Shown here piece by piece: positions 17,677 to 32,226 of a DNA stretch of 32,368 bases (positions within the stretch are counted from its first letter, which is position 1; the number at the start of each line of letters is the position of its first letter). The stretch covers positions 1 through 32,368 of the forward strand of contig RECR01000051.1 in the NCBI GenBank assembly GCA_007693955.1. The letters run 5' to 3'. The translations under genes were made by a program, and so were the position numbers. This DNA comes from Gloeocapsa sp. DLM2.Bin57 (GTDB lineage: Bacteria > Cyanobacteriota > Cyanobacteriia > Cyanobacteriales > Gloeocapsaceae). The notes under the pieces were generated by a model that did no database searches, had not been told where the DNA came from, and saw only the letters and a program-made list of their open reading frames with translations.

Positions 17677-20600
17677 ATGGAGACTTGCAAACCTTCTCTT
17701 CAGGGATTGAAAAAAATTAAAGAAGCTATCCATAAACTCCAACAAGAGAGAGGGTGGGCATTAGATGACGAAGGGTGGCTAGAAGAAGCTAGTAAATTTC
17801 TGCCACAACAAAATATCCATGGTAAGCTTATACAACAATCTGTATCACTTGGACCATGGAAAAGTTTTAGATCGGGCAAAAAAGGGATAAAAATTCGTTA
17901 TTTTAATGCTTTTTGCCGAATCTTAAATTTAGATCCCCAGGAGATTATTAACCAAGAAGAATCTAGTTGTTTATCTTCTCATCAAGATTGGGCTGACTCA
18001 CCTGATATCTTAACTTTTTTTGGACGAGAAAAAGAATTAACTACTCTGCAAAATTGGATTATTAATGATAATTGCCAACTAGTAGGAATTTTAGGAATTG
18101 GTGGTATTGGCAAAACTACACTATCAATGAAATTAATCAAGGGTAATCAAGAGATTCAATCAAGATTTAAATATATTGTTTGGCGATCACTTTTTAATGC
18201 TCCTCCCTTGACTGATCTTCTCAATGATTTAATTACCTTTCTTTCAGGACAACAAAAAAGTAATTTACCAGCTTCTATAGAACAACAAATCTTATTATTA
18301 TTACAATACCTGAAAAACGAACGTTGTTTATTAATTTTAGATAATTTTGATACCTTACTTGAGCATGATAATTACTCAAGAACCTATAAATCAGGATATG
18401 AAAATTATGATTATTTATTGCAAAAATTTGCTACAGTATCTCATCAAAGTTGTTTACTAGTTACTAGTAGAGAAAGATTACCTTATCTAGAACAATTCTC
18501 AGGATGTTTTCTACAACTAGAAGGTTTAGAATATATTCAAGCCAAGAAAATTTTACAGAAAATGGGTAATTTTGAGGGGTTAGAGGAAGATTGGCAAAGT
18601 CTGGTTAAATTATATAACGGTCATCCCCTAGCCTTACAATTAGCAGCTAGACATATTTTAGATGTTTTTAATGGCGATATTACATATTTTTTACATGAAG
18701 GTCAAACTATTTTTTATAGTATTAATTATTTATTAAATCAACATTTTAAGCGTCTATTACCTGAAGAAAAAGAGATTTTATATTGGTTAGCCATAAATAG
18801 AGAGCCAATCTCATTAGCAGAATTAAAGTCTCAAATAGTTTTAGTAAAAAATAAAAATAATTTATTTAATAATATTAATTCTTTGTATAATAAATTGTTG
18901 CTTAAAAACGTCGGTGATAAGCTGGAAATTGAACCTGTAATAATTGAATTTTTAACAGAGAAATTAATTGAAGAAATAGTAGAAGAGATTATTCAGCAAA
19001 AACTAGAAATTTTCAATACTCATGCTTTAGTGATAGTTCAAAGTAAAGAATATCTAGTCGATAGTCAAATTAGAATGATTCTTGAACCGATCAAACAAAT
19101 GCTAATTGACTATTTAGGTTCAATAAAACTTATAAATTATCTCAAGGAAATTTTAGCCAATGAACAAGAAAATTATCCTCTTAAACCAGGATATCTAGGG
19201 GGAAATATTTTTAACCTGTTACGTCAACTAAATGTAGATTGGAGAGGTTTTGATTTTTCTTATTTAACGATCAAACAAGCATATTTAGCGGATCAGAACT
19301 TATATAATATCAATTTTACTCATTGTGATCTATCAGATTCATTACTAAAACAAACTTTTAGTGGAGTTCATGCAGTAACATTTAGTCCTGATGGAAATAT
19401 TTTAGCAGTAGGAGATTCTCATGGTACAATTCGTTTAATCAGAATCGAAGACGGACAACAAATTAGTATTTTTCCGAAACAACATCAATGGTGGGTAGTA
19501 GCTTTAAGCTTTAGTCCCGATGGTGAAAGATTGGTCAGTGGTAGTTTAGACACGACAATTAAAGTTTGGGATCTTAAAACAGGTCAATGTCTTTACAAAT
19601 TAAATGATCATACTCAATGGATTTGGACAGTGACTTTTGGTCCTGACGGTAAAACCATAGCTAGTGGTAGTGATGATCAAACTATTAGACTTTGGGATGC
19701 TTCTACAGGAAAATGTAAGCAAATTTTACGAGGACATCAAGGTTGGGTTTTAGCGGTTGCTTTTAGTCGGGATGGTAAAACAATTGCTAGTGGAAGTTAT
19801 GATAAAACCATCAAAATTTGGGATCTTAAAACTGGTAAATGTCTGAAAACCTTATCAGGACATCAAGACGGCGTTTGGTCTGTTGTGTGGAGTCCTGATG
19901 GTGAAACAATCGCTAGTTGTGGTGGAGGTGAAACCACGATTCGCTTATGGTCTGTTAAAACAGAAAAATGTTACCGAATCTTAACAGGACACAATCAAGG
20001 GATTAAAGTTATAGGGATTACCCCAGACGGTAAAACCTTAGTTAGTGGTTGTCTTGAAGCAATTGTCAAGTTTTGGGATTTAGCAACAGGAGAATGTCGG
20101 GGGACTCTAAAAGGACATATTACGGGAATAAGAACCCTTGCTATTAGTCCTGATGGTAAAATCGCAGCAACAGGAGATAATGACCAGATCCTCAAGCTAT
20201 GGGATATTGACAAGAGAAAATGTCTCAAAACCTGGCAAGGATATATTAACTGGATTTGGTCAATGGCGATTAGTCCTGATGGTCAGACAATTGTTAGTAG
20301 TCATTTAGATCATAATATTAGGTTGTGGAATCATCCTACGGGAGAATATTTAACAACTTTAAAAGGACATACCGCTTGGATTTGGTCAGTAGCTTTTAGT
20401 ACAGATGGCAAAATAATTGCTAGTACTGGAGATGATCAAACTGTTAAACTGTGGGATAGCCAAACACATCAATTACTTAAGTCTTTAAAATATAATACTC
20501 AAGAATATCAAGGCGGGATTTGGGCGATCGCTTTTAGTCGAGATAATCTATATTTAGCTAGTGGAGGTCCTGAGACAACAATCAAGATTTGGGATGTTGC

Positions 20601-21231
20601 AACAGGAAATATACGGAGTTTCCCTGGACATCAAGGTTGGATTTTGGCAATTGCTTTTAGTCCTCAACAAAATATACTAGCTAGTGGGGGTGATGACCAA
20701 AGGGTCAAAATTTGGGATATTGTTAGTGAAGAATGTATCATGACTTTAGAGGGACACACCAATAAAGTGCGTTGTCTGAGTTTTAGTCCTGATGGCGATT
20801 TTCTAGTTAGTGGTGGTGAAGATAATACTATTAAAATTTGGGATCTTAGACAAGGAAGTTGTGTTGGGACTCTGATTGGACATCAAGATTGGGTTTACTC
20901 AGTCAGATTTAGTCCTGACAGTAAAATGATTCTCAGTAGTTCCAATGATGGTACTATTAAGCTTTGGGATATTAGTACTCAAGAATGTATCAAAACTTTA
21001 TCAGAACATTCTGGCGGGGTTGCTGCTGCTTTATTTACTCCTGAAGGTAAAACTATTATTAGTGGGAGTCATGATGGCACAATTAAATTTTGGGATGTAG
21101 ATAAGAAGGAATCTTTAAGAACTATCAGAGTACCAAGACCTTACGAGGGTATGAATATTACTGGGGTTCAGGGATTAACCGATAGTCAAAAAGAGTCCCT
21201 CAAAGCTTTAGGCGCAATTGATTATAAATAA
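17677..21231 (+). CDS. STAND ATPase: N-terminal helical domain, NB-ARC, pentapeptide-like stretch, 14 WD40 repeats
   Basis: The 1184-residue protein starts with a helical domain (about 1-95, 'LQGLKKIKEAIHKLQQERGW...PWKSFRSGKKGIKIRYFNAFCRILNLDPQEI') that resembles the HTH-like domain seen on other cyanobacterial NB-ARC proteins. The NB-ARC ATPase follows (about 110-370): 'FFGREKEL', Walker A 'GIGGIGKTT' near 140-148, Walker B 'CLLILDNFDTLL', 'LVTSRERLPYL' and the GLPL-like 'NGHPLALQLAA'. Residues of about 520-560 are pentapeptide-like (FDFSYLTIKQAYLADQNLYNINF). From about 562 to 1150 there are 14 WD40 repeats, enough for two seven-bladed propellers. The tail 'RPYEGMNITGVQGLTDSQKESLKALGA' is typical of this group. 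STAND proteins sense a ligand through the repeats and oligomerise; some act in defence or cell death. The trigger here is unknown. The 3' end overlaps treH by 10 bp. Confidence 0.93.
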   Translation: METCKPSLQGLKKIKEAIHKLQQERGWALDDEGWLEEASKFLPQQNIHGKLIQQSVSLGPWKSFRSGKKGIKIRYFNAFCRILNLDPQEIINQEESSCLSSHQDWADSPDILTFFGREKELTTLQNWIINDNCQLVGILGIGGIGKTTLSMKLIKGNQEIQSRFKYIVWRSLFNAPPLTDLLNDLITFLSGQQKSNLPASIEQQILLLLQYLKNERCLLILDNFDTLLEHDNYSRTYKSGYENYDYLLQKFATVSHQSCLLVTSRERLPYLEQFSGCFLQLEGLEYIQAKKILQKMGNFEGLEEDWQSLVKLYNGHPLALQLAARHILDVFNGDITYFLHEGQTIFYSINYLLNQHFKRLLPEEKEILYWLAINREPISLAELKSQIVLVKNKNNLFNNINSLYNKLLLKNVGDKLEIEPVIIEFLTEKLIEEIVEEIIQQKLEIFNTHALVIVQSKEYLVDSQIRMILEPIKQMLIDYLGSIKLINYLKEILANEQENYPLKPGYLGGNIFNLLRQLNVDWRGFDFSYLTIKQAYLADQNLYNINFTHCDLSDSLLKQTFSGVHAVTFSPDGNILAVGDSHGTIRLIRIEDGQQISIFPKQHQWWVVALSFSPDGERLVSGSLDTTIKVWDLKTGQCLYKLNDHTQWIWTVTFGPDGKTIASGSDDQTIRLWDASTGKCKQILRGHQGWVLAVAFSRDGKTIASGSYDKTIKIWDLKTGKCLKTLSGHQDGVWSVVWSPDGETIASCGGGETTIRLWSVKTEKCYRILTGHNQGIKVIGITPDGKTLVSGCLEAIVKFWDLATGECRGTLKGHITGIRTLAISPDGKIAATGDNDQILKLWDIDKRKCLKTWQGYINWIWSMAISPDGQTIVSSHLDHNIRLWNHPTGEYLTTLKGHTAWIWSVAFSTDGKIIASTGDDQTVKLWDSQTHQLLKSLKYNTQEYQGGIWAIAFSRDNLYLASGGPETTIKIWDVATGNIRSFPGHQGWILAIAFSPQQNILASGGDDQRVKIWDIVSEECIMTLEGHTNKVRCLSFSPDGDFLVSGGEDNTIKIWDLRQGSCVGTLIGHQDWVYSVRFSPDSKMILSSSNDGTIKLWDISTQECIKTLSEHSGGVAAALFTPEGKTIISGSHDGTIKFWDVDKKESLRTIRVPRPYEGMNITGVQGLTDSQKESLKALGAIDYK

Positions 21232-22745
21232 TCAAATAAAGCTAATAATTCCAAGAATACACCATTAGTCCAACCGAAGCCAATCTCATTAGTATTGTAG
21301 CCATAATAAATAGCTTCGGAGACGTCAGAAGAACAACGGGAAACGTCGTATTTTTCTAAGATAACTCCCGTTTTCTCAAATTCTTGTCTAACTAGATTAA
21401 GAAACTTATTAGCTAGACGTTGGGCATCTTCATGATAACCGTAGTTACGTAAACCTTCGATCGCGAATAATTGTAACGGGGCCCAACCAAAAGGGGCATC
21501 CCATTGATTCCCAGAAACGTAGTTACTAGTTAGTAAACCCCCATTAGCTTCTAATCTACATAAATTTTCTCTCAAGCGTTTAGCTTGTTCATCAGAAGCT
21601 ACATTAGCCCATAGAGGCATAAAAGTAGTAGCAAATTCGTAACAACGTCTTCTCCCTGTACGGAAATTATAGTCAAAGTACATCCCTTTTTCTTCATCCC
21701 AGAGAAACTCGTCGATAAGTTTTTGACGATGTTGAGAATTACTTAACCAATATTCGGCGATATCTTCATGTCCTAAAATTTGGTGGATCAAGGCGATATC
21801 TTTTTCCATTTGGTAGAGTAAGACATTGAGACAAACAGGGGCGTAGTGGATAATATCGACGCTAAATGGACCAAAACGATTACTAATATCGAAACCTGAC
21901 TCACGCATAGAGCGATCGCCTTGATAGAATAAGTCTGTGAGGGTATCTTCTTCGCGATTATAGTATAGGTCTAGGTCGTAGTCTTCTACCTCAGCAACTC
22001 CTTGATAATATCGTAAGACTCTATCATAGTGAGTCAAACCCTGTTCGTCTTTTTCAGAGTCAACTACTTCAGGGGCAGGTCCTGTACCCAAGGCGTTATA
22101 ATGTGATAATCCCGTAGTAGGGTTAAGATGGGGGGGAACAGTCCAATAAAAGTAATAAGCTTCGATAGTTGGTAATAGAGACCTTAGCCAATCTAAATCT
22201 GAATTAGACTCAAATACTCGTAAAACTGTACGACTAAACAAGGGAGGATGGGAACGATTGAGCATATAACTCCGATTCCCATTGAGTATAGTACCATAAT
22301 GCTTGACTTGATAACCCAACAGATCTGCCATATTTTGGGCTAGGGTATATTCATGATCTCTGAGTAAACCCAAGACGATAAAATAGCTATCCCAACCGTA
22401 CATTTCATTAAATCTTCCTCCTGGTACAACATAATCTAGGGGAAGATAGAGTAACCCATGTTCTCTGATTTGGTCAATCTCAGGAGGTAGGGTACGTATT
22501 TCTATGTGGCTAAATTTTTCTGGGGTGACTATTTCCTTGATTTTATATTTAATCTCATCGAGGTTTTCTTGACCTGAAACATAGACTATCCAGGGTTCAC
22601 CTGGTAATTTTTCTATTTTAGGGTCTTTGGCTGCTTGGATGATGTATTCTGGAGTACGAGTTAGGGTTTTCCATGTCTGCTTGATATATTCTCTAACTGC
22701 TAGGATTTCTTGGGAATTGATATCTATGGTAGGCTGAGTGAGCAT
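21222..22745 (-). CDS. treH: Trehalase (GH37)
   Basis: TreH splits trehalose into two glucoses. The 507-residue protein carries both GH37 signatures: 'PGGRFNEMYGWDSYF' from residue 108 and 'QWDAPFGWAPLQ' near 415. The probable catalytic acid is the Asp in 'RESGFDISNRF' and the base is the Glu in 'ILEKYDVSR'. No signal peptide is visible, so it should act in the cytoplasm. The ATG abuts the treY stop with no gap, so translation is coupled. The gene order treZ-treY-treH matches the cluster known in Nostoc/Anabaena. Placing the degrading enzyme last may keep its level low relative to synthesis. Confidence 0.92.
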   Translation of the reverse strand: MLTQPTIDINSQEILAVREYIKQTWKTLTRTPEYIIQAAKDPKIEKLPGEPWIVYVSGQENLDEIKYKIKEIVTPEKFSHIEIRTLPPEIDQIREHGLLYLPLDYVVPGGRFNEMYGWDSYFIVLGLLRDHEYTLAQNMADLLGYQVKHYGTILNGNRSYMLNRSHPPLFSRTVLRVFESNSDLDWLRSLLPTIEAYYFYWTVPPHLNPTTGLSHYNALGTGPAPEVVDSEKDEQGLTHYDRVLRYYQGVAEVEDYDLDLYYNREEDTLTDLFYQGDRSMRESGFDISNRFGPFSVDIIHYAPVCLNVLLYQMEKDIALIHQILGHEDIAEYWLSNSQHRQKLIDEFLWDEEKGMYFDYNFRTGRRRCYEFATTFMPLWANVASDEQAKRLRENLCRLEANGGLLTSNYVSGNQWDAPFGWAPLQLFAIEGLRNYGYHEDAQRLANKFLNLVRQEFEKTGVILEKYDVSRCSSDVSEAIYYGYNTNEIGFGWTNGVFLELLALFDYL

Positions 22746-25520
22746 CTAACGACTTATAAGTAAGGCTACAGGGAATTGGGTTAGGATTTTTCCTAGTTGC
22801 AGTTTACTGCTATGGGGTAGCGATCGCTTAGTTAAAACATCTAGCCATTCGCTAACATTGTTATTAGTTAATTCTAAAATAGTATCTTGCCAAACTGCTG
22901 TACCTAGAGGTATTTTTCCTGGTTCTACCAAGGTAGCGTAAAATCTGGGTACAACGATCAAAGCGTTGGTTTTTCCTGACTTTCTTTGAAAAGCGATGAC
23001 ATTGTCTGAATATGTTCCTGAAACATTAACGGGTGTATAATCCCCTTGTTGAAAGATTTCTTGATATTCTGCTAACGCTGTTAAGGTTTGATGAATCAGA
23101 TATAATTTTACTCTGCCATCTGTGCTATATTCGAGCAGATTGTCGAGTAAATTAGCTATATCTTCTTCTTTTGCTTGTTGTAATTGTTCTAACTCGTGGA
23201 GACGCTGATTATAATCTACCGGACGACGGTTATCAGGATCTACTAAACTGAGATCCCACATTTCCGTACCTTGATAGATATCGGGTACACCAGGACAAGT
23301 TAACTTTAACAGAGTTTGAGATAGAGAGTTTAAGATACCATAATGGGCTATTTTCTCCCCAAAAGTGCGTAAACTAGCTAAAAACTTATTATCTGGTTCA
23401 TCGGTTAATAATTTCTCGACAAAGGTTACGAAATTGTTCTCATATTCTGTGTCGGGATGTAACCAACCTGTATGGACTTTAGCTTCTCTGACTGCTTTAA
23501 TGACGTATTCTTTAATTCTCGTGATCAACTCTTGATGGTTATATGGTTCAAAAGGTAAGGAACCTACTAGATTCTGATAGAGAAAATATTCGTCATTGCT
23601 ATCTAAGGTAATGGGATTATCGAGATCTTGTTTATATTGTTCATTCATTTTTTGCCAAGTAATGACTTGAGTTTGCCATTCTTGGGGTATTTCTGAGAGA
23701 ACATTGATTCTTGCTCTGACATCTTCACTTCTTTTGGTATCATGAGTAGATGAGGTATTGAGAGAATGGGGCCAATAATTAACTTGTTGTTGGTTAAAAC
23801 TATGAAATTCTGATACTGTTACTCCAAAGTTATGAGGCGCTCCTCCTACCTCGTTGAGAGATACTAAAGGATTATAGATATAGAATAAGGTATCTTCTAC
23901 ACCTTTTGCCATTAAAGGTCCAGAGAATTGCTGCATCTTCATCACCCAATGCAATCTCTGTTCTTTTTCTGTCTCGGTAAGATCTTCTATCCCTCTTAAT
24001 AAGAATAACTCTTCAATAAAGTTTAGTTCGTTAATTAGTTGGGGGTTATTACGTTTGGCTGTTTGAATGACTCTGATGACATAGGTACGATAACGTTCGT
24101 TTACTCCTTCGCTGGTAATATAAGTACGATAGATGGGAAATAGTACTAAGATTTCTACGATCGCTCTACGTATCCCACTCAGGGTAAAATCACGAGTAGA
24201 ACGATATCCACTAGCTATTTCTTTAAGCATATTAGCGAGGTTTTCTACGTCTCCTGCTAAATTGCGATCGGCGATTAAGCGTTTACAGGCTATTTCTTTA
24301 TTTTCGTAACTTTCCCATTGTCCTGTAAAGTGGCGATAGATTTGTAAAAATTCGTTTTCGTTGGCTTTTTGACAGAATAACCCATTGAGATAATAGAGGA
24401 ATTCGTAACCTGATGTTCCTTGTACTGGCCAATCTTCCGGTAAGGTTTCTCCGTGTTGGAGGATCTTCTCCACTATTACATATGTACGACCTATATACTT
24501 ACGCAGTCTTTCTAGGTATTCTTTGGGGTTATAGAGTCCATCGATGTGATCAATCCGCAAACCTGTAAATTGATTAGTTTCTACTAATTGTTGGATGAGT
24601 TGATGAGTTTGTTCAAATACTGCTAATTTCTCGATACTAACGCAAATAAGCTCATTTACGGTAAAAAAGCGCCGATAATTTAGTTCTTCTGCGCCAACTT
24701 TCCAAAAGGAGAGGCGAAAGTATTGTAAGGAGAGTAAATTATCTAAAAGTTCGTAATTTTGATTAAATAATTCGATATTCTCACTAATAAACTCGTTAAT
24801 TACTGAGTTAGACTCAAATAATTCCCAGAGTAAAGTCTTACTAAAAGCGATCTGAGTTTTATATTGTTGGGGATTTTCAATATTACTAGCATTTTTGAGG
24901 AGATAAACGATCCCCAAAAATTTAATATATTCGGGGTGTTTTGCTTCTAGTTTTGTTGCTAATCTTTCTAAATCATAGGTAACTACTTCTAGATATGATT
25001 CTATTCTTAAGGGAAAATTAAGGTCATAATAACTGACAAACATTCCTTGGTCAAAATATTTTAACTTCAGTTCCCCTCTTTCTAAACAGTTACCGTAGAA
25101 ATCTCCTAATAAGGGGGCTAAGACTTTGCCCTGGAGATCACGATAGGGGTGTTCCCATTGAATATCAAAAAACTCATAGTATTCTGATTTAGGACCATAG
25201 GCTAGTACATCCATAAGTAGGTTATTTTCGGTATGATAAGCCATATGATTGGGGACAATGTCTTGTAACCACCCCATATCCTGTTCTTGTAAAATCTGAT
25301 TGAGATATTCAAATTCTGCTTGAGTACCGATTTCGGGGTTCAGTTGATTATAATCGACTACGTTATAACCGTGAGTACTTCCTGTACAAGCTTTAAAAAT
25401 AGGAGAAGCGTATATATCTGATATCCCTAATTTTTGTAGGTAGGGTATGATATTTTGGGCATCTTGGAATTGAAAGCTAGCGTTAAATTGCAGACGATAG
25501 GTAGCAGTTGGAATACGCAT
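22746..25520 (-). CDS. treY: Malto-oligosyltrehalose synthase
   Basis: TreY converts the reducing end of a maltodextrin into a trehalose unit by intramolecular transglycosylation. The 924-residue length is normal for this GH13 subfamily. It begins 'MRIPTATYRLQFNASFQFQDAQNIIPYLQKLGISDIYASPIF', the standard TreY start. It shows 'DIVPNHMAYH', the nucleophile Asp in 'GLRIDHIDGLYNP' (near residue 323), the acid Glu in 'YVIVEKILQHGE' and 'TSSTHDTKRSEDVRAR'. 'GVPDIYQGTEMWDLSLVDPDNRRPVD' completes the C-terminal signature. It lies 13 bp behind treZ and abuts treH. Confidence 0.96.
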   Translation of the reverse strand: MRIPTATYRLQFNASFQFQDAQNIIPYLQKLGISDIYASPIFKACTGSTHGYNVVDYNQLNPEIGTQAEFEYLNQILQEQDMGWLQDIVPNHMAYHTENNLLMDVLAYGPKSEYYEFFDIQWEHPYRDLQGKVLAPLLGDFYGNCLERGELKLKYFDQGMFVSYYDLNFPLRIESYLEVVTYDLERLATKLEAKHPEYIKFLGIVYLLKNASNIENPQQYKTQIAFSKTLLWELFESNSVINEFISENIELFNQNYELLDNLLSLQYFRLSFWKVGAEELNYRRFFTVNELICVSIEKLAVFEQTHQLIQQLVETNQFTGLRIDHIDGLYNPKEYLERLRKYIGRTYVIVEKILQHGETLPEDWPVQGTSGYEFLYYLNGLFCQKANENEFLQIYRHFTGQWESYENKEIACKRLIADRNLAGDVENLANMLKEIASGYRSTRDFTLSGIRRAIVEILVLFPIYRTYITSEGVNERYRTYVIRVIQTAKRNNPQLINELNFIEELFLLRGIEDLTETEKEQRLHWVMKMQQFSGPLMAKGVEDTLFYIYNPLVSLNEVGGAPHNFGVTVSEFHSFNQQQVNYWPHSLNTSSTHDTKRSEDVRARINVLSEIPQEWQTQVITWQKMNEQYKQDLDNPITLDSNDEYFLYQNLVGSLPFEPYNHQELITRIKEYVIKAVREAKVHTGWLHPDTEYENNFVTFVEKLLTDEPDNKFLASLRTFGEKIAHYGILNSLSQTLLKLTCPGVPDIYQGTEMWDLSLVDPDNRRPVDYNQRLHELEQLQQAKEEDIANLLDNLLEYSTDGRVKLYLIHQTLTALAEYQEIFQQGDYTPVNVSGTYSDNVIAFQRKSGKTNALIVVPRFYATLVEPGKIPLGTAVWQDTILELTNNNVSEWLDVLTKRSLPHSSKLQLGKILTQFPVALLISR

Positions 25521-25533
25521 TAGTTATTTTTAT

Positions 25534-27357
25534 TTATTTTTGTTTAGAATAGACAGCGACGGTTAAACCTGTTATGTTCACTTCAAGGTTATTAATGCTG
25601 TCGGGAAGGGTTGAACCTGGACCTAAATAAGCTTTTATTGACGAATCTAACTGTTTTTGCCAGTTTCCTGGGGGAAGTTGCGGAATTTTTACCCCTTGTT
25701 GATTAAAGTTTAGCAAGATTAGTACAGATTCTGTGTCTTGATTCCGCGTGAAATAAAACCAGCGTTCCTGTTCGTCATACTCTACTTTAACACTATCTCT
25801 AGCGTAGTTACGCAAGGGTGTCAACTTTTTCCGCAATTCTAGGAGTTTTTGGTAAAATTTGAGTAAAACAGCGTGATTTCCTGTTTCTCTAAGTTTCCAA
25901 TTCAAACGCGATCGCTGCAAAGTTTCTACACTAGCGGGATCTGGAGGCTCTCCCAACCATTTAAATGAGGCGAATTCTCGTTTACGTCCTGCTTGTACGG
26001 CTTTAACTAGGTCGGGATCACCGTGACTGATAAAGTAGTAAAATGGGGCTGTTTCGCCGTATTCTTCCCCCATAAATAACATGGGTATTCCAGGACCTGT
26101 AAGGGTTAAAGCGGCGGCTAATTTAAGACCATCAAAGGAAATTAAGCTACTAAGACGATCGCCTAACATTCTATTTCCTACTTGGTCATGATTTTGACTA
26201 TAGATTAAAAATTGACTAAAAGGGCGATCGCCTATTTTATTGCCGTGATACCGTTGACGATAGGGGGAATAATCCCAAGTATAAGTAAAACTCTCGGTGA
26301 AAGCCTTAGCTAAATCTGCACATTTGCCATAATCTTGATAATAGCCTTGGTTTTCTCCTGTCAAGAGAGTATGAATACAGTGGTGAACATCATCACACCA
26401 TTGCGCTGCTAAACCGTATCCTCCTTGAGTGGTTGGGTTAATGATCCTCGCGTCGTTTAAGTCACTTTCAGCGATTAAATAGACTGGTTTTCCTGTTTCC
26501 TTGGTAAATTCGTTTACTCGCTCTTGCATTTCGGCTAAGATATGTTTAGCGCCAAAATCGTAGATAGCGTGAATCGCGTCTAAGCGCAAACCATCTAGAT
26601 GATATTCTTTGAACCAGTACAAGACGTTTTCAATGAAGAAATTACGCACCCCATAACTATAAGCGTCGTCAAAGTTGAGAGCTTTACCCCAAGGGGTGTT
26701 ATATCTATCGGTAAAATAGGGGGCGAAATCTTGAGTATAGTTTCCTTCAGGTCCTAAATGATTATAAACTACATCGAGAATGACAGCTATTCCCTGTTGG
26801 TGACAAGCGTCTATTAATTGTTTGAATCCTTCTACTCCTCCATAGGAATGTTGCACAGCGAAGGGATACACTCCATCGTAACCCCAATTTCTACTCCCAG
26901 GAAACTGAGCTACAGGCATAATTTCTAGACAGTTAATCCCTAATGCTTTTAACTCCTCTAAATGGGGGATAATCCCTGTAAATGTACCCTCAGCACTAAA
27001 TGCCCCTACATGTAATTCATAGATAATTAACTCTTCTAGGGGGAGATTTTGCCAACTGCTATCGTTCCACTCAAAAGCTGTATGATCGATAACCTGGGAT
27101 GGTCCGTGTACATCAAGAGGTTGACTATGGGATACGGGATCTGGTCTAGTTTTTTCGCCACCATTTAGCTGATACTGGTACAAAGTTCCTGGGGGTATCT
27201 CTGTAGCAGTAATTCGCCAGTAGCCTAACTCGTCTTGTGTCAGTGGTATGACCCGTTCTGAATCTCCCAGGATTTTAACTTCTATTTGTTTAAGGTTTGG
27301 GGCCCAAACGGTAAATTCACAATGGTTATTCTTGAGATAATTTGCTCCAATTCGCAT
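25534..27357 (-). CDS. treZ: Malto-oligosyltrehalose trehalohydrolase
   Basis: TreZ releases free trehalose from the TreY product. The 607-residue protein has an N-terminal CBM48-like beta domain (about 1-90, 'CEFTVWAPNLKQIEVKI'). The GH13 barrel shows 'YELHVGAFSAEGTF', 'VVYNHLGPEGNY', the nucleophile Asp in 'GLRLDAIHAI' (near residue 260), the acid Glu in 'LIAESDLNDARI' and the 'SQNHDQVGNR' His-Asp pair. 'GPGIPMLFMGEEYGE' follows. It is the first gene of the tre unit, 50 bp downstream of the glutaredoxin gene, with a GC-rich hairpin in the gap. The cluster points to trehalose as a drought or salt protectant. Confidence 0.96.
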   Translation of the reverse strand: MRIGANYLKNNHCEFTVWAPNLKQIEVKILGDSERVIPLTQDELGYWRITATEIPPGTLYQYQLNGGEKTRPDPVSHSQPLDVHGPSQVIDHTAFEWNDSSWQNLPLEELIIYELHVGAFSAEGTFTGIIPHLEELKALGINCLEIMPVAQFPGSRNWGYDGVYPFAVQHSYGGVEGFKQLIDACHQQGIAVILDVVYNHLGPEGNYTQDFAPYFTDRYNTPWGKALNFDDAYSYGVRNFFIENVLYWFKEYHLDGLRLDAIHAIYDFGAKHILAEMQERVNEFTKETGKPVYLIAESDLNDARIINPTTQGGYGLAAQWCDDVHHCIHTLLTGENQGYYQDYGKCADLAKAFTESFTYTWDYSPYRQRYHGNKIGDRPFSQFLIYSQNHDQVGNRMLGDRLSSLISFDGLKLAAALTLTGPGIPMLFMGEEYGETAPFYYFISHGDPDLVKAVQAGRKREFASFKWLGEPPDPASVETLQRSRLNWKLRETGNHAVLLKFYQKLLELRKKLTPLRNYARDSVKVEYDEQERWFYFTRNQDTESVLILLNFNQQGVKIPQLPPGNWQKQLDSSIKAYLGPGSTLPDSINNLEVNITGLTVAVYSKQK

Positions 27358-27407: not shown

Positions 27408-27731
27408 CTAGGAAGCTAAAGCAACTTCTAGCATTTCTTGTAATTCTCCACTTTGGTAGAGTTCTATCATGATATCTGAGCCACCAATAAACTCACCGTT
27501 AACATAAACTTGGGGAATGGTGGGCCAATTGGAATACTCTTTGATTCCTTCACGAATGTCGTAGTTTTCTAAGATATCTACGGTTTCATAGGGTACACCT
27601 AGACTATTGAGGATTTGTACCACATTATTAGAAAAACCGCACTGGGGCATTAATTTAGACCCCTTCATAAAGACCATGATTTTATTATTTTTAACCAAGG
27701 CTTCTATTTTTTGCTGCAACTCTGGTGTCAT
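27408..27731 (-). CDS. grxD: Monothiol glutaredoxin, Grx4/CGFS type
   Basis: The 107-residue protein carries the CGFS active site with Cys31, a cis-Pro motif 'WPTIPQVYVNGEFIGGSDI' and the upstream lysine in 'MVFMKGSKLMPQCGFS'. CGFS glutaredoxins bind and transfer [2Fe-2S] clusters with glutathione rather than reduce disulfides. The bolA gene lies immediately upstream (41-bp gap). Grx4 and BolA form a known heterocomplex, so the pair is functionally coherent. The cyanobacterial homologue is often called Grx3 and is single-domain as here. Confidence 0.95.
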   Translation of the reverse strand: MTPELQQKIEALVKNNKIMVFMKGSKLMPQCGFSNNVVQILNSLGVPYETVDILENYDIREGIKEYSNWPTIPQVYVNGEFIGGSDIMIELYQSGELQEMLEVALAS

Positions 27732-27772
27732 ATGCTCTCTTGACTTTGCTGTTATTTTCTTTGTTTATTAGT

Positions 27773-28033
27773 TTACAGTGTTTCTTCCATTCCTTTCCAG
27801 GCTTCGGGAGTATATGTTTTTAAGGCTAAAGCGTGAATAGCTTCTGAAGACAAAGCTTCTTGTAAAGCACCATACACTAATTGATGTTGTTTTACTCTAG
27901 TTTGACCTGCAAAACTCGCTGAGATAACTGTTGCTTCGAGATGATCTCCACCTCCTGTTAAATCTCTGACCATGACTTGTGCGTCTGGTAATTTAGCTTG
28001 AATCATCGTTTGAACTTGTTTAAGGTCAACCAT
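27773..28033 (-). CDS. BolA family protein
   Basis: The 86-residue protein has the BolA fold pattern: '[32 protein letters not shown]', then '[17 protein letters not shown]' with His50 as the invariant cluster-binding histidine, and His31 in the variable loop of BolA_H-type members. It ends '[20 protein letters not shown]', close to IbaG/YrbA-like members. It should pair with the CGFS glutaredoxin downstream to bind or relay a [2Fe-2S] cluster. The gap to that gene is 41 bp and to the upstream secreted protein 32 bp. Confidence 0.93.
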
Positions 28034-28065: not shown

Positions 28066-28671
28066 TTACTGATTTGAAGTGGAAAAGGGTGTATCTACGA
28101 AACCAATTTCATAAAGTTGCTGATAGGATTTTTTGCCTAATTCGCTGGTAGGATTTTGAGACCTAATTACCTGTATTAGTAATGGTACGGCTAATTCGGG
28201 TTGATTTTGTGCTCTATGTACCAAAGCTAATTGATAGGTTGCTTCGTCTCTCATTTGTCCTGTTTGAGCTGCATTGTTTCTTTGTCCTTCAGCGATGCGA
28301 TTATCAATACCTGCAAAACTACTATTTAATTGTAAATAAAAGTTGGTCAATTGGTTAAATACTTGACGAGCTTGTTGTAACTTAATAGTAGCTAAATTAT
28401 AATCTTCGGCGTTAATCGCTTCGTTAGCTTCTAACATTAGTCTTTGACCACCTTCCATACTCAAGACGCTATCTGCTTGGGTTAGAGGTCTGGTATTACC
28501 TGGATTAGTCAGATCTTCTCCTTCTAATTCTACTTCTGTTTCAGGTGCAGTTGGTGTCTCTTGACTGTACACGGGTAAAACCTGTACTAAACTTAATGAT
28601 ATCATTATTGCTAATAAACTCTGACCAAGGCTATTTCTGCTGATTTTTGTTTTCTTTATAGTTAAAATCAT
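28066..28671 (-). CDS. Secreted TPR-like protein of unknown function
   Basis: The 201-residue protein has a basic N-terminus and a hydrophobic segment (residues 17-34, '[22 protein letters not shown]') that reads as a signal peptide. A low-complexity acidic linker ([16 protein letters not shown]) follows. The rest is helical: '[43 protein letters not shown]' resembles a TPR-type repeat, and 'ALVHRAQN' and '[18 protein letters not shown]'-like segments support helical pairs. It is probably periplasmic. It is divergent from the 1177-residue gene with only 21 bp between start codons. I do not recognise the family. Confidence 0.65.
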
Positions 28672-28692
28672 TTAAGGATTATTCTAAACTTT

Positions 28693-31600
28693 ATGCCTAA
28701 TCAAGACTTAATTTTCAATATCTTAGCACTTAGGGTGAACAGCTTTATCTCTTTAGTCAATTCTGAAGAGGGATGGTTGATTAGTTTAATCGTAGTCTTA
28801 TTAGCGGGAATATCCCTAGGTTTGGGACAGGGAATCATTCTTTTTGTCAGTCGGGTTAAACCTTGGCGCTTTGTTTTTAGTATCTTAGTCAACGCGATTT
28901 TATTTACTTTTGGCTTTTTATTCCTGGTTTTTAGCGTTTGGCTTAATTGTCAAATCCCCTGGTGGTCATTATCTATCCCCTTTGCTAGTTTAGTACAGGT
29001 ATTGGGTGTAAGTTATGCTCCCCAATTGTTTAGTTTTACCGGTGCTTTACCTTATCTAGGTGTACCGATTCTGTCGTTGTTATCGGTATGGCGACTGTTA
29101 GCTATGGTTGTGGGTTTTAGTGCTGTAGCAGGAGTTGATCTAGCTGAATCTTTTCGTTATGTAATTATCGGTTGGCTAATTTTACAACTGTTAGAAAATA
29201 CCCTAGGTAAACCCATTACTAGCTTTGGGAGAAAAGTCTCTAATCATGTGGCTGGTACAGAATTACCCAGAAATAGAAAACAAGTCAAACGAGCCATTCG
29301 TAACGAAATAGACTCTATAGTTAACTCAGATCAGCACAACTCAGACCTATCTTTAAATCAAGCTAGAATCAATAATTCTCATCAACAGCTAAAAGTAATT
29401 AAACAACAAGATACCAGACTAGATGCAAAAATCCTAAGTTTATTAGGTATGTTGCTGTTGTTAATAGTAATTACACTAGCTTTAAGTCCTTTATATCGAG
29501 GGTTTTTAGCTTGGCAAGATAATTTACCTGACTTATTCAAACTAATATTTGACCTGGGTTGGATTGGTTTAATTGCTACGGTATTCGCGGGATTTTTAGC
29601 ACCTTTAGAAACCCTGGGTTGGTGGGCTGGTTGGTATGGAGATGATTTAGAAGTACAAGCTCAAACTGAAGAGATAACCGAAGAGAATAACTATGATGGC
29701 TATGTTATCTATTTAGATGGTATTGGTCAATCGGGATCTCAATATACTCCTGATGTAGAAAACTTTTTAGAAGAATTAAAAACAGCTATTCCGAGAAATT
29801 ATAAACTGATCAAGGGTTTAATGATGTATTCAGTACTCAATAAACCCCTAGATGAAGATCGCCCTTTAGCTTTTTTCTGGAAAATAGTAGATAACATGCG
29901 TATCGCTAATCCTCAAGCTATTTTGGGGATAATTTTAAACCTACGCAATGTGTTTATTGTAGCTGTTTCTGCCGACCAACGCTATGGACCAATTTATAAT
30001 CTTGGTATAGCGCAAACATTATATAACGGGTTAGTTAAAGAAGGATATCAAAGGGGGACACCAATTACTCTGATTGGTTATAGTGGGGGAGGTCAAATGT
30101 CTGTAGCGGTTGCTCCCTATCTGAAAAAGGCTATGAGTGCTCCTGTAGATGTGATTTCCCTTGGGGGTGTAATGAGTGCTAACAACAACTTGTTGGATTT
30201 AGAACAGTTATATCATCTGGTGGGTGATAAAGATTCTGTAGAAAGAATTGGACCTGTGATGTTTCCTGGTCGTTGGCGCATTTTTCCCTTATCTTATTGG
30301 AATCGTGCTAAACGTAGAGGTAATATCAGTATTCTATCTCTAGGACCTGTGGGACATCAAGTACCTGGGGGAATGATGGATGATCAAGCTTATTTAGAAG
30401 ATGGAAGAAGTTATTTAACACAAACGATTGAGATTATTATTAAGATTCTGGAAGGGGTAGCTTTACCTGGAGAAAATTTACCCATTCGTACTGTCAGTAA
30501 TTATGAACGCTATCAACAAGCTAGTTGGATACAACCTGATAGTTATCCACTGATTCAACAAGTAGATACTAATCTTTATCATCCTGTGGGAGATTGGGTA
30601 GGTCGTTTGATCTTACCAAGTTTATCAGAACGTAAACAGGTTCAGGGTGCTTGGTTTGAGATCTATTCTGCTCCTAGTGAATATCAGCATTTAATCGGTA
30701 CAAGGGTAAAGTTACGGGAAAGTGATGACCCTTTTATACAAACATGGGTTAAAACTGTGACTAGAGATGTCCATTTTAGCGGTGAGGCTGAATATACGGC
30801 TAAATATGGCGGTTTAATTCATCCTCTCCGTCTCAATCATTGGCTTAGGGTTAATCCCATTGAATCTTTAGCTGGATCTCGTCCTTATGATGACGTCGTG
30901 GTTACTATCTCTGCTGATGATCTAGAAGTCAGGGGGGATTGTTTATATATTTCCCAAGAATTGATTCAAGTTACGGGACGTTTTTACGCTTTGGTGCGTT
31001 TTTTAGCTCCTTTGGGGGATAATCTCTGGAAAGTACAACATTTTGACCCTAATTCTCGCAGTTTTACAGGCTCTGTAGAAGTGGTGAGTCTTCCTGAAGT
31101 TATTCCCGATGGTAATGATTGTTATCCCTCTACTAGTAAAGGGTTAGAAAAGTCTCCTCTTAATGAGCAGGGATGGTATATCTATGGGAGCAAAAATGCT
31201 CAAAATGTCTTTGTGGTGATGTCTTTCATTCCTCGGGTTTTGCTAAAACTTGAACCACAGTCTCTGATTAATGATGTTAAACAGGGTTATCGTTTTATTC
31301 GAGAACAATCTTGGCAAAATGAGATCGCACCTAAAGGTAAAATTGGCTCGGTTTTGATTAGTGGTGAGGGACAAAATTGGCAAGAAGGCGATCGCGCTTT
31401 GGTGATTCACGTCTATGGGGGAATTGGTGGTAATAAACGTGAACCAGCTGCTGCTACACCAATATTTTTTGGTCATTTTGCTTATGGTTTAGCCACGGTA
31501 ATCAAAGAACCTCTCACGGGTGAGTTACGCTTTGATATAGTTTATGATCAGGTCTATACTCACAATACTGATGGTTTAATTGCGGGTCAATTACACTGGT

Positions 31601-32226
31601 CTAGATATATGGGCGATCGCCAGTTTGGTTGGATGGGAACTCGTCCTGTTTGTGATTTGTTGATTAAGTTTGAACCCTTTACTGGTTACTATAATCTAGA
31701 TGGACAGTTGGTGTCTCCTTTAGACTATATGTTACTGCAATTAAACGTGATGACGGCTCGTTATCGCATCGGAGATGGTACGGGAGGAACTTATGTAGGA
31801 CCTGCTAATAATTGTGCTCAAGACTCTAATCAGGCTTTATTTGCTAGTATTGAGTATATTTATCGCCTTATGGGCCAAAATCCTGAGATTGAAAAGGCTT
31901 TAATCCGCGATAATCCCCAACAAGCTTTCGCTTTAACACAATTACAAGAACTTAAAAAAGACTTAAAAAATATCCTCGAGCCTTTCGGAAGACCTCGATC
32001 TGACTGGGAAAATAATCAGTTTAATCTCGGAAGTACTCTGGAAGATAGACCTCTAGCTAATCTCTGGTATGGTTTGAGAAGTTGGCGTACGATGTTTCCC
32101 CGTTATGCTAGTGATAGTATCGTCCGTGTCTTCTTAAAATATGGTGCTCAAGTGTGGGTATTGCGCACTAATCAGATTGGTGGTAATGACCCCGATATTG
32201 AGGCGATCGCTCCGATTACTTTTTAA
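28693..32226 (+). CDS. Large membrane protein with alpha/beta-hydrolase-like domain and C-terminal His/Cys domain
   Basis: The 1177-residue protein has an N-terminal membrane region (about 1-180, five hydrophobic segments) and two more helices near 250-310. The next region has an alpha/beta-hydrolase pattern: 'YVIYLDGIGQSG', the nucleophile elbow 'GYSGGGQ' with Ser464, Asp512/Asp514 in 'VGDKDSV' and His555 in 'VGHQVPGG'. The C-terminal part contains 'FFGHFAYGLATV' (His928) and 'YVGPANNCAQDSNQALF' (Cys1041). The His-before-Cys order with Asn-Cys is like permuted papain-fold enzymes (LRAT, YiiX, DUF4105). I recall a cyanobacterial family of this length sometimes labelled Abi/CAAX protease, but no CPBP motif is evident. 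The function is unknown, plausibly lipid or peptide hydrolysis at a membrane. Confidence 0.75.
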   Translation: MPNQDLIFNILALRVNSFISLVNSEEGWLISLIVVLLAGISLGLGQGIILFVSRVKPWRFVFSILVNAILFTFGFLFLVFSVWLNCQIPWWSLSIPFASLVQVLGVSYAPQLFSFTGALPYLGVPILSLLSVWRLLAMVVGFSAVAGVDLAESFRYVIIGWLILQLLENTLGKPITSFGRKVSNHVAGTELPRNRKQVKRAIRNEIDSIVNSDQHNSDLSLNQARINNSHQQLKVIKQQDTRLDAKILSLLGMLLLLIVITLALSPLYRGFLAWQDNLPDLFKLIFDLGWIGLIATVFAGFLAPLETLGWWAGWYGDDLEVQAQTEEITEENNYDGYVIYLDGIGQSGSQYTPDVENFLEELKTAIPRNYKLIKGLMMYSVLNKPLDEDRPLAFFWKIVDNMRIANPQAILGIILNLRNVFIVAVSADQRYGPIYNLGIAQTLYNGLVKEGYQRGTPITLIGYSGGGQMSVAVAPYLKKAMSAPVDVISLGGVMSANNNLLDLEQLYHLVGDKDSVERIGPVMFPGRWRIFPLSYWNRAKRRGNISILSLGPVGHQVPGGMMDDQAYLEDGRSYLTQTIEIIIKILEGVALPGENLPIRTVSNYERYQQASWIQPDSYPLIQQVDTNLYHPVGDWVGRLILPSLSERKQVQGAWFEIYSAPSEYQHLIGTRVKLRESDDPFIQTWVKTVTRDVHFSGEAEYTAKYGGLIHPLRLNHWLRVNPIESLAGSRPYDDVVVTISADDLEVRGDCLYISQELIQVTGRFYALVRFLAPLGDNLWKVQHFDPNSRSFTGSVEVVSLPEVIPDGNDCYPSTSKGLEKSPLNEQGWYIYGSKNAQNVFVVMSFIPRVLLKLEPQSLINDVKQGYRFIREQSWQNEIAPKGKIGSVLISGEGQNWQEGDRALVIHVYGGIGGNKREPAAATPIFFGHFAYGLATVIKEPLTGELRFDIVYDQVYTHNTDGLIAGQLHWSRYMGDRQFGWMGTRPVCDLLIKFEPFTGYYNLDGQLVSPLDYMLLQLNVMTARYRIGDGTGGTYVGPANNCAQDSNQALFASIEYIYRLMGQNPEIEKALIRDNPQQAFALTQLQELKKDLKNILEPFGRPRSDWENNQFNLGSTLEDRPLANLWYGLRSWRTMFPRYASDSIVRVFLKYGAQVWVLRTNQIGGNDPDIEAIAPITF

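Follow-up and report, generated by a model that had tools for sequence, protein, structure and literature searches.

A cyanobacterial membrane protein joins a predicted serine hydrolase to a candidate permuted papain-like cysteine domain

Organization of the fusion gene

The analyzed window, 32,368 nucleotides of contig RECR01000051.1 (assembly GCA_007693955.1) from the cyanobacterium Gloeocapsa sp. DLM2.Bin57, carries near its end a gene for a 1,177-residue protein that is present as a single copy in the 3.45-Mb genome. A preliminary description of positions 28693 to 32226 had reported a membrane protein of this length in which a Ser-Asp-His set is followed 370 to 490 residues later by a His and an Asn-Cys pair. 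The named residues (S464, D512, D514, H555, H928, N1040, and C1041) were all located at the expected positions of this open reading frame (ORF), H928 and C1041 lie 373 and 486 residues beyond H555, and several hydrophobic helices precede the hydrolase, in keeping with a membrane protein. Scans of the whole protein against Pfam, NCBIfam, and PADLOC and a sequence search of the PDB returned no match above the cutoffs.

Comparison with homologs resolves the protein into three fused modules, A, B, and C, each of which is a separate gene elsewhere (Table 1). A scan using one genome per species recovered 78 homologous loci, with relatives at 40 to 86% identity, mostly in Cyanobacteria and with a few in Eremiobacterota and Chloroflexota. 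For example, in several heterocystous and other cyanobacteria module A is encoded by its own gene immediately upstream of a B+C gene, and elsewhere it is a separate gene beside a B-only gene, in either divergent or codirectional orientation. Module B was found alone, as A+B, and as B+C, and also on replicons of Sinorhizobium, Microvirga, and Nonomuraea. Module C was found as its own gene, and at both Chloroflexota loci it adjoins a separate B gene. Plasmid homologs are annotated as "hypothetical protein" or left unannotated.

Table 1. Coordinates of the fusion gene, its modules, and candidate catalytic codons in the window
Feature	Position	Strand	Description
Whole A-B-C fusion gene	28693..32226	+	1,177 amino acids plus stop; uninterrupted reading frame
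Module A	28705..29337	+	Residues ~5-215; tentative Yip1-type polytopic membrane domain; homologous to stand-alone A proteins
Two hydrophobic helices	29425..29628	+	Residues 245-275 and 280-312; lead into module B; end in PLE.LGWWAGWYG
Module B	29689..30462	+	Predicted alpha/beta-hydrolase domain; core residues ~333-590, whole unit ~275-598
S464 codon	30082..30084	+	Predicted nucleophile in GYSGG; between strand 458-463 and helix 465-481
D514 codon	30232..30234	+	Predicted catalytic acid; after strand 505-510
H555 codon	30355..30357	+	Predicted catalytic base; after last strand 545-549
Module C, N-terminal half	30490..31332	+	Residues ~600-880; beta-rich, weakly OB-fold-like
Module C, C-terminal half	31345..32223	+	Residues ~885-1177; candidate permuted papain-like Cys/His domain
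H928 codon	31474..31476	+	First residue of strand 928-938
Q953 codon	31549..31551	+	Candidate third polar residue; end of strand 945-953
Y1024 codon	31762..31764	+	Candidate NlpC/P60-type tyrosine; near end of helix 1009-1026
C1041 codon	31813..31815	+	Candidate nucleophile; first residue of helix 1041-1062

Structure and conservation of module B

In a model of the full-length protein (predicted local distance difference test score [pLDDT], 83; predicted template modeling score [pTM], 0.70), residues 306 to 590 adopt an alpha/beta-hydrolase fold, which Foldseek matched to dienelactone-hydrolase-like enzymes with a probability of 1.0 (best E value, 3.8e-3). VIA comparisons gave Z scores of 13.4 to 2o2g (188 residues; root mean square deviation, 3.9) and 13.2 to TesA (6fw5), with dienelactone hydrolase, TesA, and acyl-protein thioesterase scoring 12 to 13. 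Across the alignment of the homologs (73 to 79 sequences per column), S464 (79/79), D514 (79/79), and H555 (78/78) are invariant. The acid of the triad had been left as either D512 or D514; conservation of D512 in only 41 of 79 sequences settles the choice on D514. Since the placement of the triad in the model is textbook, module B is almost certainly a serine hydrolase, and the lipase/esterase-like domain proposed from the sequence can be retained.

Module B shares with hydrolases of the dienelactone hydrolase/TesA/APT1 type the fold, the G-x-S-x-G nucleophile elbow, and the order and placement of Ser, Asp, and His, at about 9 to 18% identity. Unlike them, it has a long segment of helices separating S464 from the first strands, follows two membrane helices that carry an invariant tryptophan-rich motif, and lacks a Pfam match above cutoff. 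The Pfam family Thioesterase (PF00975) was matched weakly, and below cutoff, in 32 of 76 members.

Module C as a candidate permuted papain-like domain

Modeled alone, module C (residues ~600 to 1177; 580 residues) reached a pLDDT of 89 and a pTM of 0.91. Its N-terminal half, with a pLDDT above 90 over most of its length, gave best VIA Z scores of 4.8 to 5.2, under the level considered trustworthy, mostly to proteins with an oligonucleotide/oligosaccharide-binding (OB) fold. The C-terminal half, here called C-cat, is modeled as a strand (901-908), a strand that begins with H928 (928-938), a strand that ends with Q953 (945-953), two more strands, a helix with Y1024 (1009-1026), a helix that begins with C1041 (1041-1062), further helices, and a strand.

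Conservation of S464, H555, H928, and C1041 had been proposed as a check on the preliminary description, and all four proved invariant or nearly so. In the homolog alignment, H928 is invariant (74/74), and position 1041 is Cys in 71 of 73 sequences and Ser in the other 2. Five cysteines can be aligned, and C1041 alone is conserved; because of this, and because S464, D514, and H555 follow the expected hydrolase strands in the model, the pattern of named residues is more than chance. In a wider set of 92 C proteins, consisting of the homologs plus 22 more distant C proteins, H928, Q953, and Y1024 are each present in 92 of 92 and C1041 in 91, and residue 1040 is either Asn or Ser (64 to 28). The lone exception at C1041 in this set is a protein of Stenomitos frigidus (L005:7903-9708) in which Ser replaces the candidate nucleophile (NNSSQDSNQAL).

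This arrangement resembles that of the permuted NlpC/P60 enzymes, a group that includes YiiX/BcPPNE, LRAT/HRASLS, Lnb/DUF4105, and Tox-Act1. Crystal structures of permuted NlpC/P60 proteins have five strands bearing the His and a polar residue, followed by a helix, a signature Tyr, and the helix of the Cys, with H49/E64/Y127/C154 in BcPPNE and H49/E64/Y115/C128 in YiiX (PMC3142127). Module C shares the His-polar-Tyr-Cys order, with the His at a strand start and the Cys at a helix start, and its spacings of 25, 71, and 17 residues from H928 through Q953 and Y1024 to C1041 compare with 15, 63, and 27 in BcPPNE and 15, 51, and 13 in YiiX. It differs in that its third residue is Gln, that its N-terminal half is large and beta-rich, and that its C-terminal part is long and helical, and it lacks a significant sequence-profile or fold-search match to these enzymes. 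Because the residue order and rough spacing agree, assignment of C-cat to the permuted papain-like catalytic domains remains plausible, and we favor it with a little more than even confidence.

Several results weigh against this assignment and the functions that could follow from it, and since fold and profile searches gave nothing significant, the agreement in residue order does not amount to proof. Foldseek comparison of the confident C model with the PDB and BFVD yielded nothing at an E value below 0.001 and only unrelated low-scoring matches, and the matches listed by VIA covered the OB-like N-terminal half or module B and included no NlpC/P60 structure. Searches of Pfam, NCBIfam, and PDB profiles with the C subdomain found no NlpC/P60, YiiX, or LRAT family, and Lnb_N (PF13387) was absent from C at E values up to 1 and from 117 genomes sampled from the phylum. 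The hhalign comparison of C with an alignment of Peptidase_C92 proteins from other members of the phylum was not significant (probability, 1 to 2%; P = 0.03 to 0.06), although it was the best of five module alignments tried; a GD motif ahead of the first strand was all that aligned. Invariance of H928 and C1041 does not by itself show catalysis, because many other C residues are also invariant, such as R1025, D1044, and (nearly) H906, with more than 20 invariant columns in the C-cat alignment. In addition, module B is found without C and C without B, and gene neighborhoods are uninformative, giving no pointer to function or substrate. Thus, of the structure proposed from the sequence alone, the alpha/beta-hydrolase fold was found for B, and for C the residue order and secondary-structure context follow the NlpC/P60 core without a significant match to an NlpC/P60, YiiX, or LRAT fold or family.

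In an alternative that is less likely, B is the sole enzyme, and H928, C1041, and the other conserved residues of C are structural or bind a metal or ligand, making C a lipid- or partner-binding regulatory module. The lack of a known enzyme fold or family for C, the many invariant columns beyond the His and Cys, and the weak resemblance of the N-terminal half to a binding barrel would all fit such a role. It accounts poorly for the fact that the sole conserved cysteine lies at a helix N terminus with the His at a strand start, or that the rare replacements of C1041 are Ser, also a nucleophile.

Module A and the predicted side of the membrane

Module A contributes helices at residues 27-45, 57-87, 97-118, 123-146, and 150-187 of the full-length model. 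One stand-alone A homolog matched Pfam Yip1 (PF04893) at 31.3 bits (cutoff, 28.6; E value, 2.3e-7); another (L143) had no Yip1 match, nor did the window protein itself in the Pfam scan. Module A is therefore classed only tentatively, by homology, as a Yip1-type membrane domain. In the motif that closes the two helices leading into module B, P304, E306, W310, A312, G313, and W314 are invariant.

The linker that precedes these helices (residues 188 to 244) holds 10 Lys or Arg residues, which by the positive-inside rule suggests that it is cytoplasmic and that, after two further helices, B and C are cytoplasmic as well. This is only a tendency, because the segment that follows the last helix is acidic.

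Distribution of modules B and C and their partners

Among 386 genomes sampled from the phylum, B was found in 46, C in 47, and both in 25. When genomes with a fusion were excluded, B was found in 29, C in 30, and both in 8 (P of ~0.001, not corrected for phylogeny). Thus, B and C tend to travel together beyond expectation even outside fusions, and neither requires the other.

Module C has a second membrane partner. In 17 of 92 C proteins, an Rce1-like (CPBP) membrane domain is attached behind it as a C-terminal tail; the four tails scanned all exceed the Pfam cutoff (PF02517), and the EExxxR and HW motifs are retained in nearly all copies. In a tree of C, these C-CPBP fusions fall on one side of a branch with a Shimodaira-Hasegawa-like approximate likelihood ratio test (SH-aLRT) value of 99, apart from the ABC and BC proteins. 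The architecture, which was not part of the preliminary description, was observed at loci L117-L127, L129-L132, L134, and L154. Another genome of the same genus (G115) holds an ABC fusion (L080) together with a C-CPBP fusion (L124), and in Stanieria sp. NIES-3757 a conjugative plasmid (L170:4911-7412) encodes a protein with module C that has the length of a C-CPBP fusion and is annotated as hypothetical. The window protein had no CPBP domain in the Pfam scan; this partner was seen only in the C-CPBP relatives. Because C-CPBP proteins begin with a positively charged segment followed by a single helix, C would be placed outside in them. The predicted sides of C therefore differ between the two architectures.

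The C-CPBP fusion parallels LnsA and LnsB of Staphylococcus aureus, an NlpC/P60 enzyme and a CPBP-like membrane protein that carry out lipoprotein N-acylation (PMC7387801), in that each pairs a known or candidate NlpC/P60 enzyme with a CPBP/Rce1-like membrane protein. Differences are that the window protein has Yip1 and hydrolase modules in place of CPBP, that the cyanobacterial CPBP domain retains EExxxR and the divergent CPBP motifs of LnsB (PMC7387801) do not, and that most C hosts also carry Lnt. This last difference makes it very improbable that C is an LnsA/Lnb-like lipoprotein N-acyltransferase standing in for Lnt: the resemblance to LnsA and LnsB and the assignment of the related DUF4105 family as the lipoprotein N-acyltransferase of Bacteroides (PMC12994826) speak for it, but an Lnt N-terminal domain was matched in the genome of the window and in 43 of the 47 genomes with C, no similarity of C to Lnb_N was detected, and the predicted cytoplasmic location of B and C in the fusion is the wrong side for lipoproteins.

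An Rce1-like partner could also point to proteolysis, with C a cysteine peptidase or amidase acting on membrane-proximal peptides or proteins and B stripping these substrates of a lipid or acyl group. The canonical members of NlpC/P60 act as peptidases (PMC3142127), and the near-complete retention of EExxxR and HW in the fused domain, where the motifs of LnsB diverge, would suit such a role. However, the permuted enzymes that share the residue order of C have been reported mainly as phospholipases or acyltransferases (Tox-Act1, LRAT/HRASLS, and Lnb; PMC12994826), and no protease signature is present in module A or B of the window protein. We regard a peptidase as improbable, slightly more so than a purely regulatory C, and far less so than a replacement for Lnt.

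Neighboring genes

The start codon of the fusion gene lies 21 bp from that of a divergent gene (28066-28692), whose 201-residue product has a signal-peptide-like start and no Pfam match. Judged from sequence resemblance, the minus strand carries a monothiol-glutaredoxin-like ORF adjoining a BolA-like ORF (27408-28033) and three ORFs (21222-27357) for a trehalase-like protein, TreY (malto-oligosyltrehalose synthase), and TreZ (malto-oligosyltrehalose trehalohydrolase), which would form a cluster for making and breaking trehalose. An ORF of 1,184 residues (17677-21231) resembles a STAND-type ATPase with WD40 repeats.

Genes neighboring the homologs (DUF3611, BrkB, a PHP protein, and DUF6629) vary by clade. 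In three small-genome cyanobacteria (L141, L148, and L149), a DUF6629 membrane protein gene is followed by A and B in constant order, and at L141 and L149 a lipase-like gene precedes the DUF6629 gene.

Possible mechanism and implications

The reading of the window protein that we favor, at somewhat less than even confidence, is an enzyme anchored in the membrane that handles acyl groups at two active sites. Module A and the two further helices would anchor the protein in the membrane. Module B, whose fold and triad were computed here, would form an acyl-enzyme on S464 and cleave an ester or thioester in a lipid or other acylated molecule. In module C, H928 and C1041, probably with Q953 and Y1024, are conserved in an order that would make up a permuted NlpC/P60-like site, and C1041 may form an acyl-thioester that is then hydrolyzed or whose acyl chain is passed on. 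The two sites may act in sequence on one lipid pool, in the manner of deacylation and reacylation. We infer catalysis by C, the acyl nature of the substrates, and the cooperation of B and C from these features. In other cyanobacteria, C would work alone or with the fused Rce1-like domain, and it may thus be an enzyme module dependent on a membrane partner but not specifically on B.

A broader proposal, which is speculative and rather unlikely as a whole, is that C represents a new cyanobacterial family of permuted papain-like acyltransferases that works with either of two membrane partners in exchange, Yip1 plus an alpha/beta-hydrolase or an Rce1-like CPBP domain. The partnership of NlpC/P60 and CPBP proteins seen in LnsA and LnsB would then exemplify a type of acyl-transfer machine that recurs in bacteria. 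The window protein would be the two-site version, with the serine hydrolase loading or clearing acyl chains for the cysteine acyltransferase.

The hydrolase, Yip1, and CPBP domains are of kinds already known, and the permuted arrangement of Cys and His is similar to a known one. The stand-alone A relative and the tails of C relatives exceed the Pfam cutoffs for Yip1 and CPBP, and the modules to which these families are fused or linked here are not ones that the literature found lists with them. Literature searches revealed no account of this combination and no paper joining Yip1, a hydrolase, and cyanobacteria, and the homologs are annotated as hypothetical or left unannotated, so the combination seems to be as unfamiliar as the preliminary description had held. 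Module C as a family and both of its fusions thus appear undescribed in the literature searched.

Module C is present in about one-eighth of the sampled genomes of the phylum, though no known family covers half of the protein. Should C prove to be a cysteine enzyme that handles acyl groups, cyanobacteria would have an unrecognized route of membrane acyl modification. The recurrence of a cysteine enzyme with CPBP would then link C to lipoprotein acylation systems so far found in other phyla, and the single chain would offer a model for cooperation within such pairs.

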